From an uncultured Alistipes sp. (GTDB lineage Bacteria; Bacteroidota; Bacteroidia; Bacteroidales; Rikenellaceae): a stretch of 64,000 bases of DNA. This document shows, piece by piece, positions 13,317 to 45,485 of this stretch (position 1 is its first letter; each line of letters starts with the position of its first letter). The position numbers and the translations under genes were made by a program. The notes beneath the pieces are model-generated. The model did not search any database and was not told where the DNA came from. It saw nothing but the letters and a program-made list of their open reading frames with translations. The DNA lies in the NCBI GenBank assembly GCA_944326035.1, contig CALVCS010000001.1, forward strand, positions 82,922-146,921, in the 5' to 3' direction.

Positions 13317-13340
13317 TAAAGAAGCCATTTGGAAAGGTTC

Positions 13341-14087: not shown

Positions 14088-14102
14088 AGTAATCCACGCC
14101 CT

Positions 14103-15593: not shown

Positions 15594-15614
15594 AAACAGA
15601 TAAAATCAACCGCT

Positions 15615-16925: not shown

Positions 16926-16934
16926 CCGTATTTC

Positions 16935-16980
16935 AACCCCGGAATCAGGCCCTAACCTCCTGTTCCGGGGTTTCTGTTTC
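16935..16980 (+). terminator. Intercistronic stem-loop between xylA and the xylose symporter
   Basis: AACCCCGGAA (16935-16944) and TTCCGGGGTT (16963-16972) form a perfect 10-bp stem with an 18-base loop, followed by a short T-rich tail. It could be a partial terminator or an mRNA stabiliser setting a lower level of transporter than of the enzymes. Confidence 0.65.
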
Positions 16981-16995
16981 CTAAAACCGACCTAC

Positions 16996-27225: not shown

Positions 27226-28182
27226 CTACCCGGCCAGCGAAACATTGAAAAATTCCACAATCCCGACCACTTCATTGGCTTCGTTCACCACCACGATCGA
27301 GTGGATTTTATAATTACGCATCATCTCTTCAGCCACGACAATCCGTTGATCCGGCAGAATGGTTTTCGGCGTACGGGTCATCACCTCCTGGGCCTGAATG
27401 TTGAAGAACTCCGCTTTATATTTGGCCATTGCCCGACGAACATCCCCATCGGTAATGACCCCGATCAACTTCCCGTTCTCGACAACGGCTGCAATGCCCA
27501 AACGGGCATCGCTAATGGCGATAATCACATCGCCCAAGGTGGTCGTTTTGTCCACCAACGGCAGGTTGTCGTGACGCATCACATCCTGAACGCGCGTCAA
27601 CAAACGACGTCCCAGACTGCCCCCCGGATGAAATACCGCGTAGTCTTCGGCTTTGAAATTCCGTTCGGTCAGCAACGCAACGGCCAACGCATCCCCCATC
27701 ACCAAGGTCGCCGTCGTCGAAGAGGTCGGCGCCAGATTCAACGGACAGGCTTCGCGTTCCACCCCAATGTTCAGATGGTAATGGGCATGTTTGGCCAACG
27801 TCGATTCGGGATTACCGGTCATGGCAATCACCACGTTCTTATTGTGTTCGAAAAAGGGAATCAACTTCAGGATCTCATCCGTCTGTCCCGAATTGGCAAT
27901 GGCGATCACCACATCGCGCGGTTCGATCATCCCCAAGTCTCCATGATAGGCCTCGCCCGGATGCATGAAAAAGGAGGGGGTCCCGGTACTGGCCAAGGTG
28001 GCAGCAATCTTCTTGCCGATAATCCCCGATTTTCCCATCCCCGTTACAATGACCTTACCGTCGCTGGCCAAAATCGCCTTGACCGCTTTCTCGAAGTCAT
28101 CCGTCAACTGGGTCAGCAGATGACGTACCGCATCGGCTTCGGTATTGATCGTGTGCACAGCACTCGCTCTAATGTCACTCAT
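27226..28182 (-). CDS. kdsD: D-arabinose-5-phosphate isomerase (KpsF/GutQ family)
   Basis: A 318-residue protein with an N-terminal SIS sugar isomerase domain (VIVTGMGKSGIIGKKIA, MHPGEAYHGDLG, NSGQTDEI) and two C-terminal CBS repeats (from about 205). It converts ribulose 5-phosphate to arabinose 5-phosphate, the first step toward KDO for lipopolysaccharide. The lyase gene lies 88 bases downstream on the same strand, with no evident functional link. A -7-like TAAATTTG on the minus strand at 28396-28389 could start its transcript and would leave a leader of about 200 bases. Confidence 0.92.
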   Translation of the reverse strand: MSDIRASAVHTINTEADAVRHLLTQLTDDFEKAVKAILASDGKVIVTGMGKSGIIGKKIAATLASTGTPSFFMHPGEAYHGDLGMIEPRDVVIAIANSGQTDEILKLIPFFEHNKNVVIAMTGNPESTLAKHAHYHLNIGVEREACPLNLAPTSSTTATLVMGDALAVALLTERNFKAEDYAVFHPGGSLGRRLLTRVQDVMRHDNLPLVDKTTTLGDVIIAISDARLGIAAVVENGKLIGVITDGDVRRAMAKYKAEFFNIQAQEVMTRTPKTILPDQRIVVAEEMMRNYKIHSIVVVNEANEVVGIVEFFNVSLAG

Positions 28183-28396: not shown

Positions 28397-29104
28397 CTAA
28401 AAAGTTCCGATAAGCCCATACTTCCGCGTCGAACAGAATACCTGACTATAGATATGAAAACCGGGACGAGAGGTTTCGATCTTGCGATTGAGTTGCAAAA
28501 TGGGCGAGCCGGACTTGACGTGCAGGTATTCGCGTTGCCGTTTGTCGGCCCGGATGGCCAGCAACTGCTGCATGCCCCCCGTCACGACAATCTGATACTG
28601 TGTCCGCAGGAAATTGAACAACGACGCATTTTCCAGGTTATAAGACGTAAAGTTCGGCAACCCGATGTTGGGCAGCATGGTAATATCCAAAAAGACAGGA
28701 GCATCGTCCAACACCCGCAGCCGTTCGAAATAGATGCATCCGGCCTGTTGTTCGGCCGCATTGATCGGGAAACCGAACGCTTCGGTCCAGGGTCTCAGTT
28801 CGGGTTTGAGAATGATCCGGGTAAAAAAATCGGGCCGTCCCACCGCCGACGTCGTCCCGCTCAACGACAAGATGCCGATGCCCCGAGGAGCTCCTTTGAC
28901 GATACTTCCTTTGCCCTGATGCTTCTGAATATAACCGTCACTCACCAGCTGGTCCAACGCCTTGCGGACCGTCGGACGGGCCAGCGAATAGCGCTGACAC
29001 AAGTCATGTTCCGAAGGCAACAAATCGCCCGGCGCATACCTCCCCTCAGAGATCGCCTGACGCAGGGCTTCGTACACTTGTCTATAACGAGGCAATTCCT
29101 CCAT
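28397..29104 (-). CDS. GntR-family transcription regulator with UTRA domain
   Basis: 235 residues. An N-terminal winged helix of GntR type (YRQVYEALRQAISEGRYAPGDLLPSEHDLC ... SLARPTVRKALDQLV) is followed by a UTRA effector domain (about 80-235) of the HutC/TreR/NagR subgroup. It contains YFERLRVLDDAPVFLDITMLPN. Such regulators usually repress a divergent or neighbouring operon and are released by a sugar phosphate or related acid. It is divergent from the oxoacid dehydrogenase/aldolase gene cluster, and a TTGTATATACAG operator-like site lies between them. It is therefore the probable regulator of that cluster. Confidence 0.88.
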   Translation of the reverse strand: MEELPRYRQVYEALRQAISEGRYAPGDLLPSEHDLCQRYSLARPTVRKALDQLVSDGYIQKHQGKGSIVKGAPRGIGILSLSGTTSAVGRPDFFTRIILKPELRPWTEAFGFPINAAEQQAGCIYFERLRVLDDAPVFLDITMLPNIGLPNFTSYNLENASLFNFLRTQYQIVVTGGMQQLLAIRADKRQREYLHVKSGSPILQLNRKIETSRPGFHIYSQVFCSTRKYGLIGTF

Positions 29105-29224
29105 GGTCTGTTTCTATTCGGGGGCAACCCCCACATGACGAGCTTTTTCCGTCCGTTCAGACGGCTGCTCTCCGACCAAAAGTAAGGAAAGATTCCGGGG
29201 CTTGCAAATTTTTAGCCTATAAAT

Positions 29225-29236
29225 TTGTATATACAG
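29225..29236. promoter_or_regulatory. Palindromic operator-like site for the GntR/UTRA regulator
   Basis: TTGTATATACAG differs at one base from TTGTATATACAA, the operator recognised by TreR of the same regulator subgroup. It is 121 bases upstream of the regulator start and about 76 bases upstream of the -33 element of the E2 promoter. The function is inferred from family and position. Confidence 0.55.
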
Positions 29237-29311
29237 GTTGTCAACTTGTAAACACTCAACAAAAAGCTATCTTATTGATTTTATGCAAATAGTAAATTTT
29301 TACTAAAAAAC

Positions 29312-29342
29312 TTGTTCATCTGAAGTTAAAAATGTATTTTTG
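29312..29342 (+). promoter_or_regulatory. Bacteroidetes promoter of the oxoacid dehydrogenase/aldolase cluster
   Basis: TTG (29312-29314) and TATTTTTG (29335-29342) are separated by 20 bases and match -33/-7. The whole 29200-29390 region is strikingly AT-rich compared with its neighbours. The E2 start is 49 bases downstream. Confidence 0.75.
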
Positions 29343-29391
29343 TCATATTCCGCTTTCAGCAACTAAACCTTAAAACAATAAAACCTAATTT

Positions 29392-30744
29392 ATGGCTACC
29401 GTAGTAATCATGCCTAAACAGGGTCAGTCCGTAGAAAGCTGCATCCTGACCGAATTCAAAAAGAAAAAAGGAGATACCGTCTCCGAAGGCGATATTCTGT
29501 TCGCCTACGAAACCGACAAGGCCTCGTTCGAAGAAGAAGCCAAAGTCAGCGGAACGGTGCTGGATATATTTTTCGATGACGGGGACGAAATTCCGGTTCT
29601 GACCAACGTCATGGTCATCGGCAACCCGGGCGAAAGCACCGAAGAGTTCCGTCCGGGCGGCAGTGCGCCCGCCGCCGCTGAAACGCCGGCCGCCCAACCT
29701 GCCGCCAGCGCAGCTCCAACCGCAGCCACACCGACCCCGACAGCCGCACCGACCCCCTCGGCTCCAGTCACCGCACCCGCCTCACCCGCTTCGGGTATCT
29801 CTCCCCGGGCTCGCGTATTGGCGGAAAAAGAAGCCGTGAATGTAAGCACCCTCAATGGCACCGGCCCCAAAGGTCGTATCATTGAACGGGATGTGCGGGC
29901 CGCCATGGCCGCCACGCCTAAGCTCACTCCGCTGGCCAAAGAGATCGCCAAAGAGACCGGAGCCGCCGTTCCCTCTACCGGAACCGGGCTGGCCGGCATG
30001 GTCAAAGGTGGCGACCTGGGGGCACTGAAGAACGCCGTTTACAGCAGCGACAGCGAAATCAAACCGCTGACCAATATGCGGAAACTGATCGCCAAGGCCA
30101 TGTATGCCTCGCTGCAAAACTCGGCTCAGCTGACTCACCACCTCAGCGCCGATGCCCGTCGTATCCTCGAACTGCGCGAAAAGGTGAAAAAAGCCATGGC
30201 CAACGGATACCCGACCAACATTACCCTCAACGACATGGTCTGCCTGGCCGTCATCAAGGCTCTCAAGCAGTTCCCGCAGGTTAACTCCCACTTCCTGGGC
30301 GACAGCATGCGCCTCTTCTCGAAGGTACACCTGGGACTGGCCGTCGATACCGAACGCGGTCTGATGGTTCCCACCGTCAAGAATGCCGACGACCTCTCGA
30401 TCCAAGGCCTCTCCAACCAACTGAAAGAGGTGGCCGCCGCCTGCAAGAAAGGGGCGATCGATCCCGACCTGCTCTCGCCAGAAGCGGCGTCATTCACCGT
30501 GTCGAACCTGGGGAACTACGGCGTAGAGATCTTTACGCCGGTGATCAACCTGCCGCAATCGGCCATTTTGGGCGTGAACACCATCGTACCGCGGCCGAAG
30601 GATCTGGGCGGCGGAGTATACGGTTTCGTGCCCCATATCGGGTTGAGCCTGACGTACGACCACCGGGCACTGGACGGCGGAGAAGCCACCCGGTTCCTCA
30701 AACAGATCGCCATCGAGATCGAAAACCTCGACTTCGAACTGTAA
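29392..30744 (+). CDS. 2-oxoacid dehydrogenase E2 component (dihydrolipoyl acyltransferase)
   Basis: 450 residues. One N-terminal lipoyl domain has the lipoylated lysine K43 in YETDKASFEEE. A P/A/T-rich linker (about 85-135) follows. There are then two E3-binding-type segments in a row: ISPRARVLAEKEAVN...GTGPKGRI near 136-172, and a second, LTPLAKEIAKETGAAV...GTGLAGMV near 180-212. The C-terminal acyltransferase core carries the catalytic HRALDGG motif. E2 transfers the acyl group from the lipoyl arm to CoA. Tandem E3-binding domains are less usual than one. The substrate oxoacid cannot be read from sequence. It is the first gene of the cluster. Confidence 0.92.
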   Translation: MATVVIMPKQGQSVESCILTEFKKKKGDTVSEGDILFAYETDKASFEEEAKVSGTVLDIFFDDGDEIPVLTNVMVIGNPGESTEEFRPGGSAPAAAETPAAQPAASAAPTAATPTPTAAPTPSAPVTAPASPASGISPRARVLAEKEAVNVSTLNGTGPKGRIIERDVRAAMAATPKLTPLAKEIAKETGAAVPSTGTGLAGMVKGGDLGALKNAVYSSDSEIKPLTNMRKLIAKAMYASLQNSAQLTHHLSADARRILELREKVKKAMANGYPTNITLNDMVCLAVIKALKQFPQVNSHFLGDSMRLFSKVHLGLAVDTERGLMVPTVKNADDLSIQGLSNQLKEVAAACKKGAIDPDLLSPEAASFTVSNLGNYGVEIFTPVINLPQSAILGVNTIVPRPKDLGGGVYGFVPHIGLSLTYDHRALDGGEATRFLKQIAIEIENLDFEL

Positions 30745-30803
30745 TTTCCCGACTGCAAAAAAACGTGTAGAACGTATAAGATAAACACAAACCGAATAAG
30801 TAA

Positions 30804-32165
30804 ATGATTGATTTAGCGATTATCGGCGGCGGGCCTGCCGGCTATGTGGCCGCCGAACGTGCCGGAGCCAAAGGGCTCAGCGTCGTGCTTTTCGAAAAGA
30901 AAGAACTGGGAGGTGTTTGCCTCAACGAAGGTTGCATCCCGACCAAAACCCTGCTCTACGGAGCCAAAGTCTACGATACGGCCGTTCATGGAGATAAATA
31001 TGGCGTATCGGTCCAGAGCGCCTCGTTCGACTTCAAAAAAATGATGGATCGCAAAAATAAGGTGATCCGCAAACTGGTCGGCGGCGTGGGAGCCAAAATG
31101 AAAGCTCATCAGGTCACCGTGGTCAAAGGGGCTGCTCAAATCATGGGGCGTAGCGCCGAAGGCATTGAAATCCAATGCGACGGACAAAGCTACAAGGCAG
31201 CCAACCTGCTGATCTGCACCGGATCGGAAGCGTTCATTCCGCCCATTCCGGGACTCAAGGAAGCCGGCGACGTGGTCCTGACGAACCGGGAAATCCTCGC
31301 CCTGAAAGAACAACCCAAAAAGTTGGTGATCATCGGGGGCGGCGTGATCGGCATGGAGTTCGCCAGCTTCTTTAACAGCTTGGGCACCGAAGTGACCGTG
31401 GTCGAAATGCTGCCCAAAATTCTGGGGGGCCTGGATGACGAAATCAGCCATATGCTGCAGGATATTTATGCCAAAAAAGGCGTGCAGTTCCACCTCTCCT
31501 GCCGCGTGACCGAAATCAAAGGCAATGAGGTGATCTATACGACCCCCGACGGCAAAACCGAATCGGCCTCGGGCGACAAGATTCTGGTGAGCGTCGGTCG
31601 CCGGGCCGTCACCCAAGGCTTCGGTCTGGAAACCCTGGGCGTGGAACTGAACCGTGGCGGCATCAAAGTGGACAACAAGATGCGCACCAACGTGCCGGGC
31701 GTCTATGCTGCCGGCGACGTCACGGGCTTCTCGCTGCTGGCCCACACCGCCAGCCGGGAAGGCGAAGTGGTGGTCAATAACCTCACCGGCCGTGCCGATC
31801 AGATGCGTTACGATGCCATTCCGGGTGTCGTCTACACCAACCCCGAAGTGGCCGGCGTAGGGCTGACCGAAGAAGCCGCTCAGAAAAAGGGCATCGCTTA
31901 TCGGGTTGCTAAACTCCCGATGGCCTATGCCGGACGTTTCGTTGCCGAAAACGAAGGCGGTACCGGCTTGTGCAAAGTGATCGTCGGAGCCCAATACGGC
32001 GAAGTGCTGGGCGTACACATGCTGGGCAATCCGTGCAGCGAAATCATCTACGGCGCCTGCATGGCCATCGAACAGGAAATGACCCTCGAAGCGATGCAGG
32101 AAGTGGTCTTCCCCCACCCGACCGTTTCGGAAATCTTCAAAGAGACGATCTTCTCATTCGAATAA
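30804..32165 (+). CDS. lpdA: Dihydrolipoyl dehydrogenase (E3)
   Basis: A 453-residue FAD/NAD disulfide oxidoreductase that reoxidises the lipoyl group of E2. The FAD-binding GGGPAGYVAAERA, the redox pair C39 and C44 in GGVCLNEGCIPTK, and the NAD-binding GGGVIGMEFASFFNSLG are present. So are the second FAD motif VYAAGDVTG and the C-terminal HPTVSE with the catalytic histidine. It follows E2 by 59 bases and precedes E1 by 51, so the three components of one complex are grouped. Confidence 0.95.
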   Translation: MIDLAIIGGGPAGYVAAERAGAKGLSVVLFEKKELGGVCLNEGCIPTKTLLYGAKVYDTAVHGDKYGVSVQSASFDFKKMMDRKNKVIRKLVGGVGAKMKAHQVTVVKGAAQIMGRSAEGIEIQCDGQSYKAANLLICTGSEAFIPPIPGLKEAGDVVLTNREILALKEQPKKLVIIGGGVIGMEFASFFNSLGTEVTVVEMLPKILGGLDDEISHMLQDIYAKKGVQFHLSCRVTEIKGNEVIYTTPDGKTESASGDKILVSVGRRAVTQGFGLETLGVELNRGGIKVDNKMRTNVPGVYAAGDVTGFSLLAHTASREGEVVVNNLTGRADQMRYDAIPGVVYTNPEVAGVGLTEEAAQKKGIAYRVAKLPMAYAGRFVAENEGGTGLCKVIVGAQYGEVLGVHMLGNPCSEIIYGACMAIEQEMTLEAMQEVVFPHPTVSEIFKETIFSFE

Positions 32166-32216
32166 CCTTTCCGCCTATCCTAAAACCTAATTTAATAAAC
32201 CGAAATTTCAACCAAC

Positions 32217-34691
32217 ATGCCTAAATCACAATACGTCGATCCTAAAGAGATCCGCAAAGCCGGAGAGATCACCTTCCAACCGATCCCGGTCAACCAGTAC
32301 AACAAAAGCATCAAAGACGAACTCGAAGCCAAGAACTTCACCGAAGAAGAGCTCAAGAACATCTACCACGACATGGTGGTGATCCGCGAGTTCGAAACCA
32401 TGCTCAACCTGGTGAAAACCACCGGAGGCTATAACGGCATCCCCTACAACAACCCGGGACCCGCCCACCTGTCGGCCGGTCAGGAAGCCGCTGCCGTCGG
32501 CATGGCCTATACGCTGACCACGGATGACTTCATTTTCGGTTCCCACCGTAGCCACGGCGAAATCTTGGCCAAAGGGCTTCGGTCGATCGCCATCCTCAGC
32601 GACGCCGAACTGGAAAAAATCATGAACGAATTCTGGGATGGCGCCACGGTCAAAGTGGCCAAGATGGGCTTCCAAGGTACAACCAAACAGCTCGCACGCC
32701 GATTCCTGCTCTACGGAGCCATGGCCGAAATCTTCGCCCGTATCACCGGCTTCAACAAAGGGCTGGGGGGCAGTATGCATACCTTCTTCATTCCGTTCGG
32801 GATCTTCCCCAACAACGCCATCGTGGGCGGTAGCGGCGATATCGCCGTCGGAGCGGCCCTCTACAAGAAGATCAACCGCAAACCGGGACTGGTCGTGGCC
32901 AATATCGGCGATGCCGCCATGGCTTGCGGTCCGGTTTGGGAAGGCCTGATGTTCGCCGCCATGGACCAGTTCAAACAGCTCTGGGAAGGCGACATGAAGG
33001 GCGGTCTGCCGGTGATCATCAACATCATGGACAACCAATACGGCATGGGAGGTCAAACCCGCGGCGAAACCATGGGTTACGATTTCGCGGCCCGCATCGG
33101 CGCCGGCGTCAACCCCGAACAGATGCATGCTGAACGCGTCGACGGCTACAACCCGCTGGCCGTCATCGACGCCTATCGTCGTAAACGCGCCATCATCGAA
33201 AAGAAAGATGGCCCCGTGCTGCTGGATGTGGTTACGTATCGTTACAGCGGTCACTCGCCCTCCGACGCCTCGTCCTACCGGACCAAAGAAGAGCTGGAAG
33301 CCTGGATGGCCGAAGACTGCATCGAAGCCTACGGAAAACAGCTGATCGAAGCCGGTCTCTCGACCCAAGCCGATCTGGATGCGGTATGGAAAGATGTCAA
33401 AGAGGTGATGACCGACATTTTCAAACTGGCCATCGACGAAGAGCTCTCTCCGCGGATGGACCTGCACAAAGAACCCGAATTGTTGGGGGGCATGACCTTC
33501 TCGAACGGTTCGGTCGACTCGATGTCCGATGCCAAACCCGAAGTCAACCATCCGATGGCTGAAAATCCTCGGGTACAGCAAATCGCCAAGAAAGAACGTT
33601 TCGTAACCGACAAAAATGGCAACCCTGTCTCGAAGATGAAACAGTTCCAACTGCGTGACGGTATTTTCGAAGCGATCATCGACCGCTTCTACAAAGACGC
33701 TTCGCTGGTGGCCTACGGAGAAGAAAACCGCGACTGGGGCGGTGCCTTCGCCGTTTATCGCGGACTGACCGAAGCTCTGCCTTATCACCGCCTGTTCAAC
33801 TCGCCGATCTCGGAAGCCTCGATCATCGGAACCGCTATCGGATACGCCATGTGCGGCGGCCGGGTGATCCCCGAAATCATGTACTGCGACTTCCTGGGTC
33901 GTTGCGGCGACGAAATCTTCAACCAGCTGCCCAAATGGCAGGCCATGAGCGGCAATATTCTCAAAATGCCGGTTGTTGTTCGCGTATCGGTCGGCTCGAA
34001 ATACGGTGCGCAACACTCGCAGGACTGGACCTCGCTGTGCGCCCACATCCCGGGCCTGAAAGTGGTCTTCCCCGTAACGCCCTATGACGCCAAAGGGTTG
34101 ATGAACGCCGCTCTGCAAGGAACCGACCCGGTGATCTTCTTCGAAAGCCAGCGAATCTACGACATTGGCGAACAGTTCCATGAAGGAGGCGTTCCTGAAG
34201 GGTATTATGAAATTCCGATCGGCGAACCCGACATCAAACGCGAAGGGAAAGACATCACGATCCTGACCATCGGGGCAACGCTCTACCGAGCCCTGGAAGC
34301 CGCCAAGATGTTGGAAGAAAAATATGGCATGAGCGCCGAAGTGATCGATGCCCGCTCGTTGGTTCCGTTCAACTACGAAAAGGTCCTGGCTTCGATCAAG
34401 AAGACCGGCCGTATCGTGATCGCCAGCGACGCCAGCAGCCGCGGTTCGTTCCTCAACGACCTGGCCCGCAACATCACCGAACTGGCTTTCGACGAGTTGG
34501 ATGCTCCTCCCGCCGTGCTGGGCTCCCGCAACTGGATCACACCGGCCTACGAGCTCGAATATGCGTTCTTCCCGCAACCGTCGGATTTCATCGACATCAT
34601 CCACGAAAAGATCGTCCCGCTGCAGGGGCACGTTCCGACCGCCAACTTCACCGATGCCGAACAGATCCGCCGCGCCAAAGAAGGCGTTTAA
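32217..34691 (+). CDS. 2-oxoacid dehydrogenase E1, fused alpha and beta subunits
   Basis: 824 residues in one chain. The first half (about 45-430) is the thiamine-diphosphate-binding alpha subunit: GPAHLSAGQEAAAVG, GGSMHTF, then GDAAMACGPVWEGLMFA...NQYGM as the ThDP motif. A linker near 435-480 leads to the beta subunit, with GEENRDWGGAFAVYRGL, NSPISEASIIGTAIGYA and the C-terminal transketolase-like domain (SLVPFNYEKVLASIKKTGRIVIASDAS). Fused E1 is common in Bacteroidetes and resembles branched-chain or acetoin-type dehydrogenases. The substrate here is unknown, but the downstream aldolase genes suggest a sugar-derived oxoacid such as pyruvate. Confidence 0.93.
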   Translation: MPKSQYVDPKEIRKAGEITFQPIPVNQYNKSIKDELEAKNFTEEELKNIYHDMVVIREFETMLNLVKTTGGYNGIPYNNPGPAHLSAGQEAAAVGMAYTLTTDDFIFGSHRSHGEILAKGLRSIAILSDAELEKIMNEFWDGATVKVAKMGFQGTTKQLARRFLLYGAMAEIFARITGFNKGLGGSMHTFFIPFGIFPNNAIVGGSGDIAVGAALYKKINRKPGLVVANIGDAAMACGPVWEGLMFAAMDQFKQLWEGDMKGGLPVIINIMDNQYGMGGQTRGETMGYDFAARIGAGVNPEQMHAERVDGYNPLAVIDAYRRKRAIIEKKDGPVLLDVVTYRYSGHSPSDASSYRTKEELEAWMAEDCIEAYGKQLIEAGLSTQADLDAVWKDVKEVMTDIFKLAIDEELSPRMDLHKEPELLGGMTFSNGSVDSMSDAKPEVNHPMAENPRVQQIAKKERFVTDKNGNPVSKMKQFQLRDGIFEAIIDRFYKDASLVAYGEENRDWGGAFAVYRGLTEALPYHRLFNSPISEASIIGTAIGYAMCGGRVIPEIMYCDFLGRCGDEIFNQLPKWQAMSGNILKMPVVVRVSVGSKYGAQHSQDWTSLCAHIPGLKVVFPVTPYDAKGLMNAALQGTDPVIFFESQRIYDIGEQFHEGGVPEGYYEIPIGEPDIKREGKDITILTIGATLYRALEAAKMLEEKYGMSAEVIDARSLVPFNYEKVLASIKKTGRIVIASDASSRGSFLNDLARNITELAFDELDAPPAVLGSRNWITPAYELEYAFFPQPSDFIDIIHEKIVPLQGHVPTANFTDAEQIRRAKEGV

Positions 34692-34705
34692 TTCCTTCCC
34701 CCACC

Positions 34706-34752
34706 TCTTTTCAAAAGTATGACCCCTCGCGGGTCATACTTTTGAAAAGAGT
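34706..34752 (+). terminator. Perfect 21-bp inverted repeat after the E1 gene
   Basis: Arms at 34706-34726 and 34732-34752 (core AAAAGTATGACCC / GGGTCATACTTTT) surround a five-base loop. No T run follows, so it may be a processing or attenuating hairpin within the cluster and not a full stop. Confidence 0.75.
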
Positions 34753-34784
34753 ACCTAACCCTACCGAACCTAAAACCTGAACCT

Positions 34785-35972
34785 ATGTGCGAATTTTGTA
34801 ACCATAGCGCTACGGAAGTGAACGTCAACGCTCACCTCCATACGCCCTATTCGTTCAGCTCTTTCGAGAAGCTGACCGATGCCCTGAACATGGCCCTGAA
34901 GGAAAACGTTCAGGTTGTCGGAATCAACGATTTCTACACCACCCGAGGTTACGAGCAATGGGATCACGAATGCCGCCGCCGAAGACTCTATCCGCTGTTC
35001 AATATCGAATTCATCAGCCTCAACAAGGAGGATCAGGCCGCGGGTGTCCGCGTCAATGACCCCAATAACCCGGGACGTACCTATTTGAGCGGGAAGGGGC
35101 TCTATTGTCCCCCCTTTCTCCCCGAACCCTACGCCGGACAATTAGCCACCGTCGTCGCCGAAACCGATAAACAGGTGCGGCAGATGTGCGAGAAACTCAA
35201 CGAGCTGCTCCGTGAAAAAGAGGCCGGTTTCGAACTCGACATCCAATGGATCGAAGAGCACCTCACCCAAGGCTCCATTCGGGAACGGCACCTGGCCAAA
35301 GCACTCCGGATGGTCGCTACCGAACATTTCAAAGAGGACCTCGAACAGCTGCTGGCCTTTTTTGAAAAAATTTTCGGAGGACGTCCCCTGCAGGCCGATC
35401 TGAACAACGTCGCCGCCGTGGAGAACGAAATCCGTAGCAAACTGCTCAAAGCCGGCGGCCCGGCTTTCGTGGCCGAAGACCCCAAAGCCTTCCTGCCGAT
35501 GGAAGACGTGCGTCGTATCATTCTGGCTGCGGGAGGTATCCCGACCTATCCGTTTCTGGCCGACGACGCCAAAGGCCATTTCACCGACTTCGAACAGGAT
35601 GTCAAACGGACGGCCGCCATCCTCAAGGATCGGGGCATCTATTCGGTGGAATTCATCCCCACGCGCAACAGCATCGAAGTCTTGGAAGCCTATGCCGGCT
35701 ACCTGCATGAACAGGGATTTGCCGTCACTTTCGGCTCCGAACACAATACCCCGGCCATGGAACCGATCCTGCTGTCCGCCCGCGACGGTCGTCCCCTGAC
35801 CCCCAAACTCAAATCCATCAACTATGCCGGAGCCTGTATCGTAGCGGCCCATCAGGAAGCCCTGCGACGAGGCTATGAAGGTTATACCAGTCACGAAGGA
35901 ATGCCGTCGCTGGCCAAACGAAACCTGTTCATTCAGGAAGGCAATCGGCTGATTCGCGCCCTGATCCGGTAA
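34785..35972 (+). CDS. PHP-domain metal-dependent hydrolase-like protein
   Basis: A 395-residue protein with the N-terminal PHP motif NVNAHLHTPYSFSS (HxH metal ligands). It is followed by VVGINDFYTTRGYEQW, NIEFISLN and a late GSEHNTPAMEP, all matching the metal-binding positions of the polymerase and histidinol phosphatase fold. A helical insertion covers about 120-240. PHP proteins include phosphoesterases, and a sugar-phosphate phosphatase role would suit its neighbours, but nothing in the sequence proves this. It sits between the E1 gene and the aldolase/dehydrogenase fusion, 26 bases before the latter. Confidence 0.7.
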   Translation: MCEFCNHSATEVNVNAHLHTPYSFSSFEKLTDALNMALKENVQVVGINDFYTTRGYEQWDHECRRRRLYPLFNIEFISLNKEDQAAGVRVNDPNNPGRTYLSGKGLYCPPFLPEPYAGQLATVVAETDKQVRQMCEKLNELLREKEAGFELDIQWIEEHLTQGSIRERHLAKALRMVATEHFKEDLEQLLAFFEKIFGGRPLQADLNNVAAVENEIRSKLLKAGGPAFVAEDPKAFLPMEDVRRIILAAGGIPTYPFLADDAKGHFTDFEQDVKRTAAILKDRGIYSVEFIPTRNSIEVLEAYAGYLHEQGFAVTFGSEHNTPAMEPILLSARDGRPLTPKLKSINYAGACIVAAHQEALRRGYEGYTSHEGMPSLAKRNLFIQEGNRLIRALIR

Positions 35973-35998
35973 CTCAACCTTTAATTTGAAGCAATCCT

Positions 35999-37960
35999 AT
36001 GAAAGAGATAGAACAATTAATCGCCATTTCTCAATTCTACGGTCGCGACAGCCGTTATGTCATCGCCGGCGGAGGCAACACCTCCTTCAAAACCGCCGAC
36101 AAACTGTGGGTCAAAGCCAGCGGCCACGCCCTGGCCACGATTACCGAAGAGGGATTCGCCCTCCTCGACCGGGCCAAATTGAATGTCATCTCCGAAAAAC
36201 AGTATCCGACCGATCCGGCGGCCCGCGAAGAAGAGGTGAAAAACGATCTGGCCGCCGCTTGCATCACCAAGGATCGTCGGCCGAGCGTGGAAACCTCCCT
36301 GCACAATGCCCTGCAGGCGCCGTTCATCGTGCATCTGCACCCCACGATGGTCAATGCCCTGATGTGCTCCCAGAACGTGGAAACCGTCACGCAACAACTG
36401 TTCGGCGACAGCGTCCTGTACATCCCGTACATCGACCCGGGGTATATTCTGTTCAAAGAGGTCGAAAAGCGCATCCAGGCCTACACCGCCGCCCACGGGC
36501 ATGAACCGGCCGTCATTCTGTTGCAGAATCACGGGATCTTCGTCGGAGCCGACACCCCCGAAAAGGTGCAGGCCCTCTATGACGAAGTGTTGAGCAAAAT
36601 CGAACATGCCCTGACCGTTACCCTGCCAACCGGCACGAAAGCCGTATGCTCCTGCGCCGCCGAAGTCGTTCCGGCCCTGCGTATCTGGTGCAGCGCCGGC
36701 GGTTCTGACAAGACCCTCCAGGTGGTCAACAATGAACTGATCGACTACTTCACCGCATCGGCTGAAAATATCGCCAAGATTTCGAAACCCTTCTCGCCCG
36801 ATATCATCGTGTACTGCAAGTCGCAATACATCTACATCGACGCTCAGGGTCCCGAAGCCATCCGGAAAGCCGCCCAGGAAAAAATCGCCGCCTACATCGC
36901 CCAAAACGGCTATGCTCCCAAGGTCATTCTGATCAAAGGCCTGGGACTGGTTGCCGTGGGGGACAACGCCGCCGGAGCCAACATCATCCAGGAGGTTTAT
37001 CAGGATATGATGAAAATCGCCTACCTGTCGGCCTCGTTCGGGGGCGAACACCCCATGACCCAGGCCCAAATCGACTTTATCGACAACTGGGAAGTGGAAA
37101 ACTACCGCCGTAAAGTGAGTGCCGGAGGCGCAGCCGGACGTGTCGAAAACAAAATTATCATCGTCACCGGCGCCGCTCAAGGTTTTGGTGAAGGCATCGC
37201 CCGTTGTCTGATCGCTCAGGGCGCCAACATCGTGGTGGCCGACCTGAACGAAACCGTCGGCACGCAAACCGTCGCCAACCTGAATACCCTGGCCAAAAGC
37301 AATCGGGCAATTTTCGTCAAAACGAACGTCGCCGATCTGGACAGCTTGCAACAACTGGTGCATGAAACGGTCTGCGCATTCGGCGGACTGGACGTTTTCG
37401 TCAGCAACGCCGGCGTCGTACGGGCCGGAAGCATCGACGTCATGACGCCCGAAAACTTCGAATTCGTCACCAAAATCAACTACAACGCCTACTTCTACTG
37501 CGTGAAAACCGTCACCCCGGTGATGAAACTCCAGAACCAATGCGATCCGCAACGGTACGCCGACATCATCCAGATCAACTCCAAGAGCGGTTTGCGCGGC
37601 TCAAAGGCCAACTTCGCCTATGCCGGTGGCAAATTCGGAGGTATCGGTCTCACCCAATCCTTCGCGCTGGAGCTGGCCCCCGCCCGCATCAAGGTCAATT
37701 CGATCTGCCCGGGCAACTTCTACGAAGGTCCTCTGTGGAGCGATCCGGTCAATGGGCTGTTCGTCCAATACCTCAAAGCCGGTAAAGTCCCGGGCGCCCA
37801 GAGTGTCGAAGACGTCCGCAAATACTACATGGCTCAAGTCCCGATGCAGAAAGGAACCGGTCCCGAAGATGTCACCAAAGCGGTGCTGTACCTGATCGAA
37901 CAGACCTGCGAAACCGGACAAGCCCTCCCCGTCACCGGCGGACAAGTGATGCTCAGCTAA
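35999..37960 (+). CDS. Bifunctional class II aldolase / short-chain dehydrogenase (SrlD-like SDR half)
   Basis: 653 residues. Residues 1-240 are a class II aldolase with zinc ligands in HLHP and NHG (LQNHGIFVGAD). A middle region (about 240-375) resembles the spacer of rhamnulose-phosphate aldolase/dehydrogenase fusions. From about 383 comes an SDR: VTGAAQGFGEG for NAD binding, NAG, and the catalytic serine and YxxxK in INSKSG...YAGGK. The segments IIQINSKSG, KFGGIGLTQS and VTGGQVM recall sorbitol-6-phosphate 2-dehydrogenase (SrlD/GutD). The likely activities are cleavage of a ketose 1-phosphate and oxidation of a polyol or aldehyde. A RhaE-type role in rhamnose breakdown is the main alternative. 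Confidence 0.82.
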   Translation: MKEIEQLIAISQFYGRDSRYVIAGGGNTSFKTADKLWVKASGHALATITEEGFALLDRAKLNVISEKQYPTDPAAREEEVKNDLAAACITKDRRPSVETSLHNALQAPFIVHLHPTMVNALMCSQNVETVTQQLFGDSVLYIPYIDPGYILFKEVEKRIQAYTAAHGHEPAVILLQNHGIFVGADTPEKVQALYDEVLSKIEHALTVTLPTGTKAVCSCAAEVVPALRIWCSAGGSDKTLQVVNNELIDYFTASAENIAKISKPFSPDIIVYCKSQYIYIDAQGPEAIRKAAQEKIAAYIAQNGYAPKVILIKGLGLVAVGDNAAGANIIQEVYQDMMKIAYLSASFGGEHPMTQAQIDFIDNWEVENYRRKVSAGGAAGRVENKIIIVTGAAQGFGEGIARCLIAQGANIVVADLNETVGTQTVANLNTLAKSNRAIFVKTNVADLDSLQQLVHETVCAFGGLDVFVSNAGVVRAGSIDVMTPENFEFVTKINYNAYFYCVKTVTPVMKLQNQCDPQRYADIIQINSKSGLRGSKANFAYAGGKFGGIGLTQSFALELAPARIKVNSICPGNFYEGPLWSDPVNGLFVQYLKAGKVPGAQSVEDVRKYYMAQVPMQKGTGPEDVTKAVLYLIEQTCETGQALPVTGGQVMLS

Positions 37961-38022
37961 ACGCTGAAGAAAAGAAAATTGGCACTTTTCCGGACAAGCT
38001 ACCGGAAAACCGAATTAATCCG

Positions 38023-38030
38023 TATATTTG
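38023..38030 (+). promoter_or_regulatory. Bacteroidetes -7 element upstream of the zinc dehydrogenase gene
   Basis: TATATTTG matches TAnnTTTG exactly and lies 38 bases before the start codon in a 108-base gap. No clear -33 TTG is at the normal distance. It may allow separate transcription of the last three genes of the cluster. Confidence 0.5.
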
Positions 38031-38068
38031 CGCCAGCAACGGGCGTAAATATCTTAACGCTTAATCGT

Positions 38069-39349
38069 ATGAAAACAAAAGCAGTAAGATTATATGGCAA
38101 GAATGACCTCCGACTGGAGGAGTTCCAGTTGCCGCCCATTCAGGACGATGAAATTTTGGCTAAGGTAGTCTGCGACAGCATCTGCATGTCCTCCTACAAG
38201 GCCGCCCATCAAGCCAACGTACACAAACGGGTACCGAGGGACATCGCTTCCAATCCGGTGATCATCGGGCATGAGTTTGCCGGTGAACTGGTGGAAGTGG
38301 GCGCCAAATGGCAGTCGAAATTCAAACCCGGATTCAAGTTCTCCATCCAACCCGCCCTCAACTATGAAAAAGGTCCGGTGGGGGTATTGAGCGCTCCGGG
38401 CTACTCCTACCGCTATATCGGCGGAGATGCCACCTATGTGATCATCCCCAACGAAGTGATGGAACAGGGCTGCCTGCTCGAATACAAAGGGCGCGGATAC
38501 TATCCCGGTGCCCTGTCCGAACCGCTCTCGTGTGTCATCGGCGCCATGCACGCCAACTATCACACCACCCCGGGCTCCTATGTGCATCAAATGGAGATCA
38601 AACAGGGGGGAAATATGGCGATTCTGGCCGGGGTGGGTCCCATGGGCCTGGCCGCCATCAATTATGCCATCCATCGTCCCGATCGCCAACCCAAACTGCT
38701 GGTCGTTACCGACATCGACCAGACCCGTTTGGATCGGGCCGCCCTGCTGTACTCCCCGGCCGAAGCCGCCAAAAACGGCATCGAACTGAAATATGTCAAT
38801 ACGGGCTCCATGAGCGATCCCGTTACCGAACTCCGTGACCTGACCGACGGGAAAGGCTACGACGACGTTTTCGTGTTCGCTCCGGTGGCTCCGGTGGTAC
38901 AACAGGCCGATGCGATTCTGGCCTTCGACGGTTGCCTCAACTTCTTCGCGGGCCCGGCCAAAACCGACTTTACCGCCCCGTTGAACTTTTATAACGTACA
39001 CTACGCCTTTACCCATATTGTGGGAACCAGCGGCGGCAATACGGCCGACATGCAGGAAGCCATCCACATGATGAGTGAAGGGCTCGACCCGGCCGGTCTG
39101 GTCACCCATATCGGAGGCCTGAACGCCGTGATCGACACCACCCTGAACCTGCCCTCGATTCCGGGCGGCAAAAAATTGATTTATACGCATATCGACATGC
39201 CGTTGACCCCGATTGCCGAATTCGCCGAACGTGGCAAAACCCAAGCCGTATTCAAAACATTGGCCGAAATCTGCGATCGCCATAACGGACTCTGGAGCGT
39301 GGAAGCCGAAGAGTATCTGCTCGCCCATGCCGATGAAGTGAAAGAGTAA
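38069..39349 (+). CDS. Zinc-binding MDR-family dehydrogenase, L-sorbose-1-phosphate reductase-like (SorE-like)
   Basis: 426 residues. The ATG at 38069 gives MKTKAVRLYGKNDLRLEEF, the normal family N-terminus. Zinc and catalytic segments are CDSICMSSYK, VIIGHEFAGE and EPLSCVIGA. The nucleotide-binding loop is GVGPMGLAA. The arrangement GHEF...GGDATYVIIPNEVM...EPLSCVIGAMHANYH...LNFFAGP...HIVGTSGGNTADM resembles SorE, which interconverts L-sorbose 1-phosphate and D-glucitol 6-phosphate. This is from memory of the family, and the exact substrate is uncertain. The neighbouring SrlD-like domain makes a ketose/polyol phosphate substrate plausible. Confidence 0.78.
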   Translation: MKTKAVRLYGKNDLRLEEFQLPPIQDDEILAKVVCDSICMSSYKAAHQANVHKRVPRDIASNPVIIGHEFAGELVEVGAKWQSKFKPGFKFSIQPALNYEKGPVGVLSAPGYSYRYIGGDATYVIIPNEVMEQGCLLEYKGRGYYPGALSEPLSCVIGAMHANYHTTPGSYVHQMEIKQGGNMAILAGVGPMGLAAINYAIHRPDRQPKLLVVTDIDQTRLDRAALLYSPAEAAKNGIELKYVNTGSMSDPVTELRDLTDGKGYDDVFVFAPVAPVVQQADAILAFDGCLNFFAGPAKTDFTAPLNFYNVHYAFTHIVGTSGGNTADMQEAIHMMSEGLDPAGLVTHIGGLNAVIDTTLNLPSIPGGKKLIYTHIDMPLTPIAEFAERGKTQAVFKTLAEICDRHNGLWSVEAEEYLLAHADEVKE

Positions 39350-39461
39350 GGAGATGGGATTCGGTGCCTGTGATTTTTTAGATGAAGCCTATAAACCTGA
39401 TTGAAAACAATCATAAACAACCATCCGGTTCCAAACCGGGTAAAACTCAATCAAAAAAGTC

Positions 39462-40766
39462 ATGAAGCAACTAGACACGAAACTGATGCACCCCGCAGAG
39501 CAGATCAAAGTGATCATCGGGCGTATCTACCGCAGCGGGATGACGACCACCTCGGGCGGTAACGTCTCCATCATGGACGATAGCGGCGATATGTGGATCA
39601 CGCCCAGCGGCATCGACAAAGGCTCCCTGACCGAAAAGGATATCATGTGCGTCAAGGCAGATGGTACCATCATCGGCCCGCACAAACCTTCGTCGGAGTA
39701 TCCCTTCCACAAAGCGATCTACCAAATGCGTCCCGGTATGAAGGCGGTCATTCACGCCCATCCGCCCGCATTGGTTTCGTTCAGCATCACCCACAAAATT
39801 CCGAACACCAACATCATCCCGCAGGCTCGCCGTATCTGCGGTCGCATCGGGTTCGCTCCCTACGACACGCCGGGCAGCCAAGGACTCGGTAAGAAAATCG
39901 CGGCTGAGTTCAAAAACCATCCCGATTACAAAGCCGTCATCATGGAAAACCATGGGGTGGTTTTGTGCGGGGAAGATCTGATGGACGCCTACCAACGTTT
40001 TGAAACCCTGGAACTGTGCGCCCGTACCGAACTCAATGCCATGGTGCTGGGACAACCGACCTACCTGACCGAAGAACAGATCGGCCAGCATGAAGCCTCG
40101 TTGCCCACCGATTATCCCCACTTCATGGGGGTTACCTACCCCTCGGACGAACGCGCCATCCGTACGGACATCGTGAAAATGGTTCGTCGTGCCTGCGACC
40201 AGGGGCTGATGATCAGCACCTACGGGACTGTCTCGGTTCGTTGGCGGGGGAACGACTTCCTGATCACCCCTCCGGGCAAACCGCGTTGGGACATCGAACC
40301 GCAGGATATCGTTCAGGTGAAAAACGGGATGGTCGAAGCCGGCAAAATTCCGAGCCGTTCGGTCGCCATGCACCAGGCCATCTACCAAAGCAACCCGAAG
40401 ATCAACTCCATCATCCTGACCCAGTCGCCCAACCTGATGGGTTTCTGCACTTCGGGCGTCAAATTCAACGTCCGCACCATTCCCGAAAGCTGGATTCTGC
40501 TACAGGATATTCCGATCATCCCTTACGGGCTGCAGTACGAAGATCCGCTGGCCATTCCTGAAATGGTTAAGAAAGTACCTTGCCTGCTGCTGGCCAACGA
40601 CTCGGTGCTGGTAACCGGCGATCAGCTGCTGAACACGTTCGACCGTCTGGAAGTGGCCGAATTCAGTGCCAAATCTCTGATCATGGCCGCTCCGATCGGG
40701 GAACTCAAACCGATCAACGACCAACAGGTCGAAGATCTGCGCGTGGCTTTCCACGTGGGGGAATAA
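39462..40766 (+). CDS. Tandem class II aldolase/adducin-family protein with a degenerate second half
   Basis: 434 residues built from two class II aldolase units. The first (about 1-205) keeps the sugar-phosphate and zinc motifs: TTSGGNVS, SSEYPFHKAIY, IHAHPPALV and ENHGVVLCG. The second (about 225-434) has the same layout (STYGTVSVR, AMHQAIYQSNPKINSIIL), but the ligand positions read TQSP instead of HAHP and ANDS instead of ENHG. It should therefore not bind zinc. It may be structural or regulatory. The active half suggests cleavage of a ketose or aldonate phosphate. It lies between the SorE-like gene and the lipoate ligase. Confidence 0.8.
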   Translation: MKQLDTKLMHPAEQIKVIIGRIYRSGMTTTSGGNVSIMDDSGDMWITPSGIDKGSLTEKDIMCVKADGTIIGPHKPSSEYPFHKAIYQMRPGMKAVIHAHPPALVSFSITHKIPNTNIIPQARRICGRIGFAPYDTPGSQGLGKKIAAEFKNHPDYKAVIMENHGVVLCGEDLMDAYQRFETLELCARTELNAMVLGQPTYLTEEQIGQHEASLPTDYPHFMGVTYPSDERAIRTDIVKMVRRACDQGLMISTYGTVSVRWRGNDFLITPPGKPRWDIEPQDIVQVKNGMVEAGKIPSRSVAMHQAIYQSNPKINSIILTQSPNLMGFCTSGVKFNVRTIPESWILLQDIPIIPYGLQYEDPLAIPEMVKKVPCLLLANDSVLVTGDQLLNTFDRLEVAEFSAKSLIMAAPIGELKPINDQQVEDLRVAFHVGE

Positions 40767-40785
40767 ACCGCTAAACGTCGTTTCC

Positions 40786-41484
40786 ATGCAACTGATTCTC
40801 AGTCCGTGGAACCTGCCCCAGTACAACATCGTGCTGGAAGAATACTTGCTAACAGAACGTCCGGGGGACGTTCTGTTGCTGTATATAAACCGTCCATCGG
40901 TGATCGTGGGCCGCCATCAGACCCTCGAGGCCGAAGTCGATTTATCCTACTGTCAACGGGAAGGGATTCCCGTCCTGAAGCGGCTGTCGGGCGGAGGAAC
41001 GGTCTATCACGACGAAGGGAACCTCAACTATGCGTTCTTTGGCGACAAAACCGCCGAACCCTTTCTCGATCACGACTTCAATGCCCCGGTCATCCAGGCT
41101 TTGGCCCGCCTCGGCATTGCGGCCCAGGCTGGTCCTCGCCGGGAACTGTTGTTTCAGGGAAGGAAAATCTCCGGCACAGCCTCGCACATCACCCGTCACC
41201 GATGGCTGTTCCACGGTACGCTGCTCCATCGAACCGACCTGGAACGGCTCGACCGTATCCGTCAGGGCGACCCGACTCGCCGAGGAAAAGGAGTCGCCTC
41301 GGTTCCCAGTCCGGTGATCAATATCGGCCCGTATAGGGATGCCGACGAATCGACGGAAGTGTTTTGCCAACGATTGACCGAAGTGTTCCTGCAAGAATAT
41401 GGGCTCGAGGCTCCTACCCCCCTGACCGAAGCCGAACAGGCCCTCATACGGCAACGAGCAGAACAACGTTACGGTTCATTCTAA
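40786..41484 (+). CDS. lplA: Lipoate-protein ligase A family protein
   Basis: 232 residues with the lipoyl-adenylate site RLSGGGTVYHDEGNLNYAFF and the conserved lysine in GRKISGTASH. It is shorter than E. coli LplA and appears to lack the C-terminal accessory domain, so it may need a partner or act only as a transferase. It attaches lipoate to E2 lysines. Its position 19 bases after the aldolase gene, in the same cluster as a lipoylated E2, suggests that it serves that complex. Confidence 0.88.
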   Translation: MQLILSPWNLPQYNIVLEEYLLTERPGDVLLLYINRPSVIVGRHQTLEAEVDLSYCQREGIPVLKRLSGGGTVYHDEGNLNYAFFGDKTAEPFLDHDFNAPVIQALARLGIAAQAGPRRELLFQGRKISGTASHITRHRWLFHGTLLHRTDLERLDRIRQGDPTRRGKGVASVPSPVINIGPYRDADESTEVFCQRLTEVFLQEYGLEAPTPLTEAEQALIRQRAEQRYGSF

Positions 41485-44447: not shown

Positions 44448-45485
44448 TTAGAACAGCGAGGGGAAGAAGACCGACACGATCAACAACAGAAGCCCGACAC
44501 ACAATACGACAATCGTTTTGCTCGAACTTCCTTTCCACTCTTTAAGCACAATGCCCCAGAAGTTACTGAAGACGATGTTCAGCGACATGAGGATACTCCA
44601 ACTGAAAGCCACCAACATTGCATTATCGGCGATGAAGCTCTGTCCCATGCCCAGGAACAGGAACTGCATGTACCACAACGAACCGCCCAACAACGAGAAA
44701 AGCAGGTTGCTGGCCAGCACCGAACCGCCCACCGTACGATATTCGTGGAACGATTTGTTCTTACGGAACAGATAAACGCAATAGATAAAGTTGGTCAGGA
44801 AGCCCCCGAACATCACGAAGATATGGACCGGACTGAAAGAGAGCAGTTCTGAACAGCCGTTAGCGATCGCCGCATCGGCAATCGGTTGACCTGCCGCCAG
44901 CCCGTAATTCATGCAGGCGCTCATCAAACCGGCAAAAATCGCAATGATCAGCCCCTTTTTCAAGGCAAACTCTTTGACCGCTGCTTTCTTTTCTTCGGCG
45001 CTCATGGCCTTGTCGCGCAATGAACCGGCATAACCGATCACCGCAATACCGGCCAACGAAATCGCCACACCGATCAACAAAGCCCAACCTCCGGGGGTCG
45101 TAAAGAGATTTTCACCGGCCACAATCGGCGGAATAATGGTCCCGAAGGCCGCACAGAAACCGGCGGATACGGACTGTCCCAACGAAATACCCAGGTAACG
45201 CATGCTCAGCCCCCAGGTCAACCCGCCGACACCCCACAAGGCCCCGAACAGAACGGCCAACGCCATCGAACTCACCGGAGCCGATGTCAGCACCGTTCCC
45301 AAGGCATCGAACGGAACGGCATACAACGTAAAAACCCATGGCAGAAGAATCCAGGAGACGATCCCTTGAGCGATCCAATAGGTTTCCCACGACCAATTTT
45401 TAATTTTGTTGATAGGCACGTAATAGCTCGATCCGGCGAACGAACCGATGGTCATCAGCAAAATTCCGATTAAAATACTATTCAT
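44448..45485 (-). CDS. rhaT: L-rhamnose:proton symporter
   Basis: A 345-residue membrane protein with about ten helices, of the RhaT family: FAGSSYYVPINKIKNWSWETYW, WGVGGLTWGLSMRYLGISLGQS, and a long central loop (YAGSLRDKAMSAEEKKAAVKEFALKKG in two stretches). It imports L-rhamnose with protons (rhaP in Bacteroides nomenclature). It lies between the isomerase and mutarotase genes on the same strand. Confidence 0.93.
   Translation of the reverse strand: MNSILIGILLMTIGSFAGSSYYVPINKIKNWSWETYWIAQGIVSWILLPWVFTLYAVPFDALGTVLTSAPVSSMALAVLFGALWGVGGLTWGLSMRYLGISLGQSVSAGFCAAFGTIIPPIVAGENLFTTPGGWALLIGVAISLAGIAVIGYAGSLRDKAMSAEEKKAAVKEFALKKGLIIAIFAGLMSACMNYGLAAGQPIADAAIANGCSELLSFSPVHIFVMFGGFLTNFIYCVYLFRKNKSFHEYRTVGGSVLASNLLFSLLGGSLWYMQFLFLGMGQSFIADNAMLVAFSWSILMSLNIVFSNFWGIVLKEWKGSSSKTIVVLCVGLLLLIVSVFFPSLF

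Follow-up and report, generated by a model that had tools for sequence, protein, structure and literature searches.

A gene cluster at positions 28397 to 41484 of a 64,000-nucleotide stretch of an uncultured Alistipes sp. genome (Rikenellaceae; assembly GCA_944326035.1, contig CALVCS010000001.1, positions 82,922 to 146,921), the whole of which is called the window here, combines an E1-E2-E3 complex of the 2-oxoacid dehydrogenase type with a set of sugar-phosphate enzymes. Its strong link to the 6-deoxyhexoses is very probable, and the reading preferred here, to which we give slightly less than an even chance, is that the cluster catabolizes L-rhamnose or L-fucose by a route that releases acetyl-CoA, not by the three-carbon split. 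An initial annotation of this DNA had named nine genes, all of which are open reading frames with the corresponding family matches, the PHP protein by a weak Pfam score together with a clear fold:

28397-29104 (-): divergent GntR/UTRA regulator (Pfam GntR 73.3 bits, UTRA 56.5 bits)
29392-30744 (+): E2 with a single lipoyl domain and a classical acyltransferase (2-oxoacid_dh, PF00198, 209 bits; E3_binding; Biotin_lipoyl)
30804-32165 (+): E3 dihydrolipoyl dehydrogenase (TIGR01350, 499 bits, above the cut-off of 408.8)
32217-34691 (+): E1 alpha-beta fusion of a separate subfamily (E1_dh, Transket_pyr, Transketolase_C)
34785-35972 (+): predicted PHP-fold metal-dependent phosphoesterase (predicted structure and Pfam)
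35999-37960 (+): fusion of a class II aldolase half (about residues 1-378) with a sorbitol-6-phosphate-dehydrogenase-like short-chain dehydrogenase/reductase (SDR; about 383-653) (profile matches and tree)
38069-39349 (+): SorE-family zinc dehydrogenase (identity to annotated sorE)
39462-40766 (+): tandem class II aldolase with an intact first and a degenerate second domain (family match and residue conservation)
40786-41484 (+): short lipoate-protein ligase (LplA-B_cat 177.6 bits; TIGR00545 198 bits, below the cut-off of 280)

The conservation of this arrangement was followed at two taxonomic depths. Among 150 Rikenellaceae genomes, a close tandem aldolase was found in 16, and 15 stretches around it were fetched. 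The order E2-E3-E1-PHP-fusion-SorE-tandem aldolase-LplA is kept in 11 of the 15 (E2 is cut by the stretch end in two), and the remaining four are short contigs or contig ends in which the parts present follow the same order; in the stretch L055, no SorE match was found in the 690 bases upstream of the tandem aldolase. Since the order recurs in 11 stretches, the arrangement is not due to chance. The wider survey covered 295 genomes of the order, with a PHP match at E up to 1e-40 as the marker of core-positive genomes (39 genomes), and gene contexts were taken from 40 stretches fetched around PHP and tandem aldolase genes. These revealed, in other Bacteroidales families, a core made up of a GntR gene divergent to E2-(E3)-E1-PHP-fusion or SDR-SorE, and the neighborhood of gntR and E2 is kept there as it is in Rikenellaceae. 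E1 and PHP share a stretch in 16 of 20 PHP stretches (E1 was not seen in L143, L145, L150 and L152), and E1 was detected in all 39 PHP-positive genomes. Among 36 genomes with the L-rhamnose isomerase gene rhaA and without PHP, two hold E1 fragments of 67-77% identity and a third shows a partial, weak match (41%), and E1 is absent from all five control genomes that lack both rhaA and PHP. The co-occurrence that the initial annotation suggested looking for extends beyond the strain, with the order kept in Rikenellaceae and the core in other families; its view of the nine genes as one unit holds for the recurring core but not for the tandem aldolase or the aldolase half of the fusion, both of which lie outside the invariant part. 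The tandem aldolase (E up to 1e-60) is present in 29 of the 295 genomes, five of these copies being below 40% identity.

Departures from the usual layout were also seen. In L116 (G377), inserted unrelated genes separate E3 from E1 and the fusion from SorE, with the gene order retained; two of the inserts were scanned and gave no Pfam match at 1e-8. In L184 (G561, outside Bacteroidales), E1 (60%) and SorE (55%) are adjacent, behind a gene for a major facilitator superfamily (MFS) permease and another that encodes a mannitol-dehydrogenase C-terminal domain; no SDR or PHP was recognized in this stretch, which is perhaps a minimal version of the cluster.

The link to rhamnose and fucose emerges from both co-occurrence and gene neighborhood. 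The rhaA gene is found in 34 of the 39 core-positive genomes versus 36 of the 256 core-negative ones (Fisher p = 7e-20, the genomes not being independent of one another), and within Rikenellaceae in 15 of 16 cluster-positive versus 40 of 134 other genomes, the single cluster-positive genome without it being 69% complete. The fucI gene (PF02952, E < 1e-40) occurs in 28 of the 39 core-positive genomes, compared with 6 of 16 core-negative genomes that have rhaA and 1 of 15 that lack it, these 31 controls having been picked in listing order and not at random. One or the other isomerase gene is present in 37 of the 39 core-positive genomes checked. In three genomes (G404, G312 and G385), gntR and the core are adjoined by fucI and fucK, both above their NCBIfam cut-offs, and by a FucP-type permease (named in G312 through 95% identity to the G404 permease), with an FSA-type gene, which scores below its cut-offs, within this run or next to it. 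In L138, rhaT, rhaA and the kinase gene directly follow SorE, and in L172 a rhamnose mutarotase gene, barely above its cut-off, lies between E1 and PHP. In the window itself, three rhamnose genes lie 3-7 kb from the cluster on its downstream side:

44448-45485 (-): RhaT-like permease (best NCBIfam match RhaT, 361 bits, slightly below the cut-off of 369)
45576-46829 (-): L-rhamnose isomerase RhaA (NF002203, 653 bits, above the cut-off of 572)
46882-48360 (-): rhamnulokinase RhaB (best NCBIfam match TIGR02627, 500.6 bits, below the cut-off of 527.95)

Because rhaTAB or fucIKP operons neighbor the core, the substrate is to be sought among the 6-deoxyhexoses rather than in sorbitol or sorbose. Isomerase, kinase and permease are supplied by one of these operons, adjacent to the core or elsewhere, so that the route is not self-contained as initially described; the statement that it includes no kinase is correct within the interval and fails just downstream, where RhaB lies with RhaT and RhaA.

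The distribution of aldolases sets these genomes apart from those with the classical FucIKA and RhaABD pathways, with which they share permease, isomerase and kinase. Canonical RhaD and the core come close to excluding each other: RhaD exceeds its cut-off in 3 of 34 core-positive genomes with rhaA versus 28 of 36 core-negative ones (p = 3e-9), and is thus missing from 31 of the 34. Nineteen of the 34 carry the tandem aldolase (one of them RhaD as well) and 13 carry neither, among them G156, which retains frame-broken tandem-aldolase pieces at L165:6249-6554, behind the rhamnose kinase. The tandem aldolase stays below the cut-off of the canonical RhaD model NF002963 (69.1 bits, cut-off 170). 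In its first domain the zinc-ligand histidines are kept in all 33 sequences compared (that of the window and 32 others), and in the second domain both HxH histidines at the zinc-ligand positions are replaced in all 33. Outside Rikenellaceae the gene lies mostly away from the core and repeatedly within rhaT-rhaA-kinase operons; a Lentisphaeria genome holds a lone copy of 46% identity (L010:9989-11287). The aldolase half of the fusion has been lost, with the SDR kept, in nine genomes (G404, G312, G245, G385, G345, G266, G156, G273 and G360), and in five it is found on its own, next or close to rhamnose genes (G245, G273, G345, G360 and G156); the claim that core-positive genomes without RhaD or tandem aldolase and with a lost aldolase half have no aldolase was dropped when these lone halves were found. 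A search for class II aldolases (PF00596) in 19 genomes, G312 not among them, gave zero matches in G385 alone, a genome that is 99% complete and carries fucIKP together with the core, and a class II aldolase gene was not seen in any of the three fucIKP stretches beside the core. No FSA enzyme is known to use dihydroxyacetone phosphate (DHAP), so the FSA-type enzyme found there would not directly replace FucA.

The two dehydrogenases of the cluster point to phosphorylated ketoses and polyol phosphates, a character that the initial annotation had recognized. The open reading frame of the SorE-like protein begins at 37979, but its relatives conserve the methionine at 38069 as the start (426 amino acids). 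Its identity is 52.5-52.7% to the annotated sorE products of Serratia, Klebsiella and Citrobacter, reaches about 54% with YggP-type proteins of E. coli and is 45% for a protein of Lactiplantibacillus encoded beside a sorbose-type phosphotransferase system (PTS); the protein thus belongs to a 45-54% identity group that includes annotated sorE genes, beyond which matches fall to 27% (plasmid collection only). The best match of the SDR half is the sorbitol-6-phosphate dehydrogenase 5o3z, with which it groups in a tree with long branches (98/91), the four RhaEW rows standing apart and SorD falling elsewhere. It shares with 5o3z the INSKSG ... KFGG signature, of which NSKSG and KFGG are present in 24 of 24 fusion sequences, its catalytic-loop motif differs from that of RhaW, and against the sorbitol-6-phosphate dehydrogenase model NF009050 it scores 202.4 bits, under the cut-off of 307.

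A close precedent for this pair is the L-sorbose operon of Enterobacteria, in which the SorE family (L-sorbose-1-phosphate reductase) likewise occurs together with an SDR, SorD; sorbose-type PTS operons pair SorE with an SDR as well. The SorE/SDR pair of the L-sorbose operon moves the carbonyl through a hexitol phosphate. The window cluster differs in its SDR, which is nearer SrlD than SorD, in its coupling to E1-E2-E3 and to rhamnose or fucose genes, and, as originally noted, in having no PTS: scans of ten proteins from the cluster and its flanks gave no PTS family among their matches.

The lipoyl complex shows expected motifs. E2 carries the lipoyl lysine motif as ETDKAS and the DHRxxDG motif as DHRALDGG, E3 has the cysteine pair, and conserved motifs are present in E1. 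The 2.3 Mb genome has no strong E2 other than that of the window, the next match being a 254-residue frame at 24.9 bits, just above the cut-off of 23. The lipoate ligase is a short form of 232 amino acids that covers positions 1-235 of the 328-position LplA model and remains under its cut-off. Sequence comparison thus supports the earlier proposal of an acyl-CoA-forming complex with its own putative lipoylating enzyme. E1 does not reach the pyruvate dehydrogenase models (NF006667, 236 bits against a cut-off of 321; TIGR03182, 193 against 394), and in a tree with few reference rows and long branches, including two AcoB-type rows named for an annotated AcoC neighbor, a 100/100 branch sets it, along with rhizobial fused E1 proteins, apart from the rows for pyruvate dehydrogenase (PDH), branched-chain ketoacid dehydrogenase (BCKDH) and AcoB, so that its beta half groups neither with AcoB nor with PDH E1 beta. 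Pyruvate:ferredoxin oxidoreductase (PFOR) exceeds its cut-off in 37 of the 39 core-positive genomes, that of the window included; pyruvate oxidation therefore does not need the E1-E2-E3 complex, for which a pyruvate role is possible but unnecessary.

The rhizobial relatives (pRL8, pAt15955 and pSM30-1) are about 54% identical to E1 over 97% of its length and are encoded in sugar operons. Neighboring genes there specify a separate lipoyl protein, an alpha/beta hydrolase (in one case annotated as acetoin-cleaving, AcoC-type) and ABC sugar transporters, as well as PfkB or FGGY kinases or mannitol dehydrogenase. Their separate lipoyl protein, alpha/beta hydrolase, kinases and ABC transporters distinguish these operons from the window cluster, and no sorE, PHP or rhamnose genes are annotated in the stretches seen. 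The AcoABC acetoin dehydrogenase resembles the window complex in its predicted cleavage, dependent on thiamine pyrophosphate and lipoyl groups, of a methyl acyloin to acetyl-CoA, and in the AcoC-type partner of the rhizobial relatives; the window complex differs in its fused E1 in a clade of its own, its classical acyltransferase E2 and its location in a sugar cluster. On alphaproteobacterial plasmids (L158, L159, L160, L163, where annotation splits the copy, and L164), fused E1 genes of 52-54% identity occur with genes for a separate lipoyl protein and an alpha/beta hydrolase, with sugar kinases or transporters nearby and lipA in one; these possibly encode a sugar-cleaving lipoyl complex.

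From the family relationships of SorE, the SDR and E1, we infer a route that leads from a ketose 1-phosphate through a hexitol phosphate and a 1-deoxyketose 6-phosphate to acetyl-CoA and a tetrose phosphate. The first step would be a reduction by SorE of L-rhamnulose 1-phosphate or L-fuculose 1-phosphate at C2, giving a hexitol phosphate, and the SDR would reoxidize C5, beside the methyl group, to a 1-deoxyketohexose 6-phosphate. Cleavage of this acetoin-like methyl ketone by E1-E2-E3 would then yield acetyl-CoA, NADH and a tetrose 4-phosphate, E2 having probably been lipoylated by the short LplA. PMC2962223 describes L-fucitol as 1-deoxy-D-galactitol, which could be oxidized enzymatically to 1-deoxy-D-tagatose. 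The exact chemistry given here is predicted, as the best of several options, and a description of the route was not found in the open-licence PMC literature. Because the products of the 6-deoxyhexose isomerases carry a methyl group, acetyl-CoA is the expected product. By their stereochemistry, both sugars would yield the same tetrose phosphate in this way, D-threose 4-phosphate or L-erythrose 4-phosphate. It may be disposed of by PHP, by HAD phosphatases or by the FSA-type aldolase that accompanies the core in other genomes, the substrate proposed for the last being reasoned from stereochemistry. The aldolase half and the tandem aldolase would be rhamnose-side enzymes forming a classical aldolase branch, or the aldolase half may be a 4-epimerase. 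The PHP protein, whose Pfam match is weak (21.9 bits against a cut-off of 26.4), has a clear fold assignment by its predicted structure (pLDDT 91.4), which matches the PHP phosphoesterases 9etk, 2yb1 and 3e0f, including RNase AM and BAD_1165; its HxH and other metal-type residues are invariant across 15 sequences.

A candidate operator lies between gntR and E2:

29223-29238 (+): candidate GntR operator ATTTGTATATACAGGT, palindromic consensus ACTTGTNNNNACAAGT, the lone match in the window

At up to three mismatches to the 16-mer ACTTGTNNNNACAAGT, this is the single site in the window versus 0.07 expected, and such sites are found between gntR and E2 at 14 of 15 loci, a count that is partly circular because the consensus was chosen by eye from the first loci. 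In later-fetched stretches, which provide a better test, all 14 that include an E2 start have a nearby site with at most one mismatch in 12 fixed positions (L165, L167-L172, L174, L177, L178 and L180-L183, of which L165 and L182 overlap earlier stretches). In L122, a homologue of the aldolase half has a perfect site 113 bp upstream.

Other genes of the window stand near the cluster. A KpsF/GutQ-family sugar-phosphate isomerase at 27226-28182 (-; TIGR00393, 377 bits, above cut-off) lies beside gntR on the same strand, and similar genes are found near the core in L141, L149, L173 and L181. The gene at 23651-25159 (+) encodes a reductive activator of corrinoid proteins of the RACo type, with Fer2 and the middle and C-terminal RACo domains. 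At 13329-18405 (+), genes for a Nudix-type regulator, an FGGY kinase, an isomerase-like protein that has no Pfam match at 1e-8 and an MFS sugar permease follow one another and look, by eye, like a xylose operon.

Several observations weigh against the acetyl-CoA route. Every one of its reactions is one that we infer, and it does not account for the role of PHP. The Rikenellaceae cluster includes both the tandem aldolase and the aldolase half, so the classical split into DHAP and lactaldehyde is available there as well; canonical RhaD is retained in three core-positive genomes with rhaA, a lone aldolase half lies beside rhaA in G245, G273 and G370, and G404, which has the fucose arrangement, holds another class II aldolase, possibly FucA. 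Neither rhaA nor fucI was found in the core-positive genomes G284 and G317, of which G317 carries a tandem aldolase along with a rhamnose-operon-type kinase. The operator, at up to one mismatch, was not found beside rhaA genes in the scanned stretches, where joint regulation with rhaA would call for it. On the enzymes themselves, the beta half of E1 is about 39-40% identical to AcoB, no closer than to PDH and BCKDH (37-41%), and E2 is of the classical acyltransferase type (PF00198), not the alpha/beta-hydrolase AcoC type. The evidence from the SDR is thin: the general SDR 4nbu is almost as similar to the SDR half as 5o3z (133 versus 141 bits), only one SrlD-type sequence was used, and the SorD of the sorbose operons falls elsewhere; long branches affect the SDR and E1 trees alike.

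A rather unlikely alternative retains the familiar chemistry: one or both aldolases would split rhamnulose 1-phosphate into DHAP and L-lactaldehyde, the SDR would oxidize lactaldehyde to lactate in the manner of RhaW, lactate would be turned into pyruvate, and the complex would be an ordinary PDH giving NADH. The aldolase genes do lie in rhamnose operons, and the fusion resembles RhaEW, the bifunctional rhamnulose-1-phosphate aldolase/lactaldehyde dehydrogenase, in being a class II aldolase-SDR fusion encoded with rhamnose genes and in matching its model (TIGR02632) over both halves with 253.9 bits. This score falls well short of the cut-off of 567.75, the SDR belongs to another subfamily, apart from RhaW in the tree and with a different catalytic-loop motif, and the aldolase half has disappeared from the nine genomes mentioned above. 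In G407, a tandem-aldolase operon without PHP or E1 continues with two genes of the lactate-utilization type (CCG and LUD domains; L130:7083-10467), which would suit this scheme, and RhaEW activities have been demonstrated in other phyla according to PMC3870299. A lactate dehydrogenase family was, however, not among the best matches of the scanned cluster proteins, SorE would be left without a role, G385 combines the core and fucIKP with no class II aldolase match, pyruvate is already oxidized by PFOR, and E1 falls outside the PDH and BCKDH rows used.

It is improbable that, in keeping with the initial annotation, the cluster serves to break down sorbitol 6-phosphate, sorbose 1-phosphate or another hexitol or ketose phosphate of this kind and that the linkage to rhamnose and fucose is secondary. 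The identity of SorE to annotated sorE products, the proximity of the SDR to sorbitol-6-phosphate dehydrogenase and the presence of MtlD-type, hexitol-phosphatase-like and SIS-type genes near some cores would agree with such substrates; set against them are rhaA or fucI in 37 of 39 core-positive genomes, the fucIKP or rhaT-rhaA-kinase runs adjoining the core in several genomes and the lack of a PTS family among the matches of the ten scanned proteins. The PTS version of this idea was set aside on the rhaA and fucI co-occurrence counts. Slightly less probable again is acyloin cleavage by E1-E2-E3 of an unmodified ketose phosphate to glycolyl-CoA, in the manner of an oxidative, CoA-dependent phosphoketolase, with SorE and the SDR feeding in normal ketose phosphates. 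The rhizobial relatives, with their xylulokinase, mannitol dehydrogenase and PfkB or FGGY kinases and no annotated deoxysugar genes, would fit that substrate, but the Bacteroidales copies track the 6-deoxyhexose isomerases.

Under the acetyl-CoA route, and with a confidence somewhat lower than in the route itself, the cluster may represent a third biochemical class of 6-deoxyhexose catabolism, in which a SorE/SrlD-type pair moves the carbonyl to the other end of the ketose 1-phosphate and a lipoate- and thiamine-dependent ketolase complex cuts the resulting 1-deoxyketose phosphate directly to acetyl-CoA. Such a class would include a new E1 subfamily shared with rhizobial sugar operons, and rhamnose and fucose would converge on one tetrose phosphate without a split into DHAP and lactaldehyde. 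Fucose and rhamnose are among the chief sugars in the mucus of the gut and in dietary pectin, and the textbook scheme for their breakdown ends in propanediol and propionate. If the route exists, it would explain how most core-bearing genomes could use rhamnose and fucose without canonical RhaD, a family of lipoyl complexes that currently carries the annotation alpha-ketoacid dehydrogenase would gain a role in cleaving sugars, and a widespread acetyl-CoA route in Bacteroidales would alter the fermentation products predicted for them.

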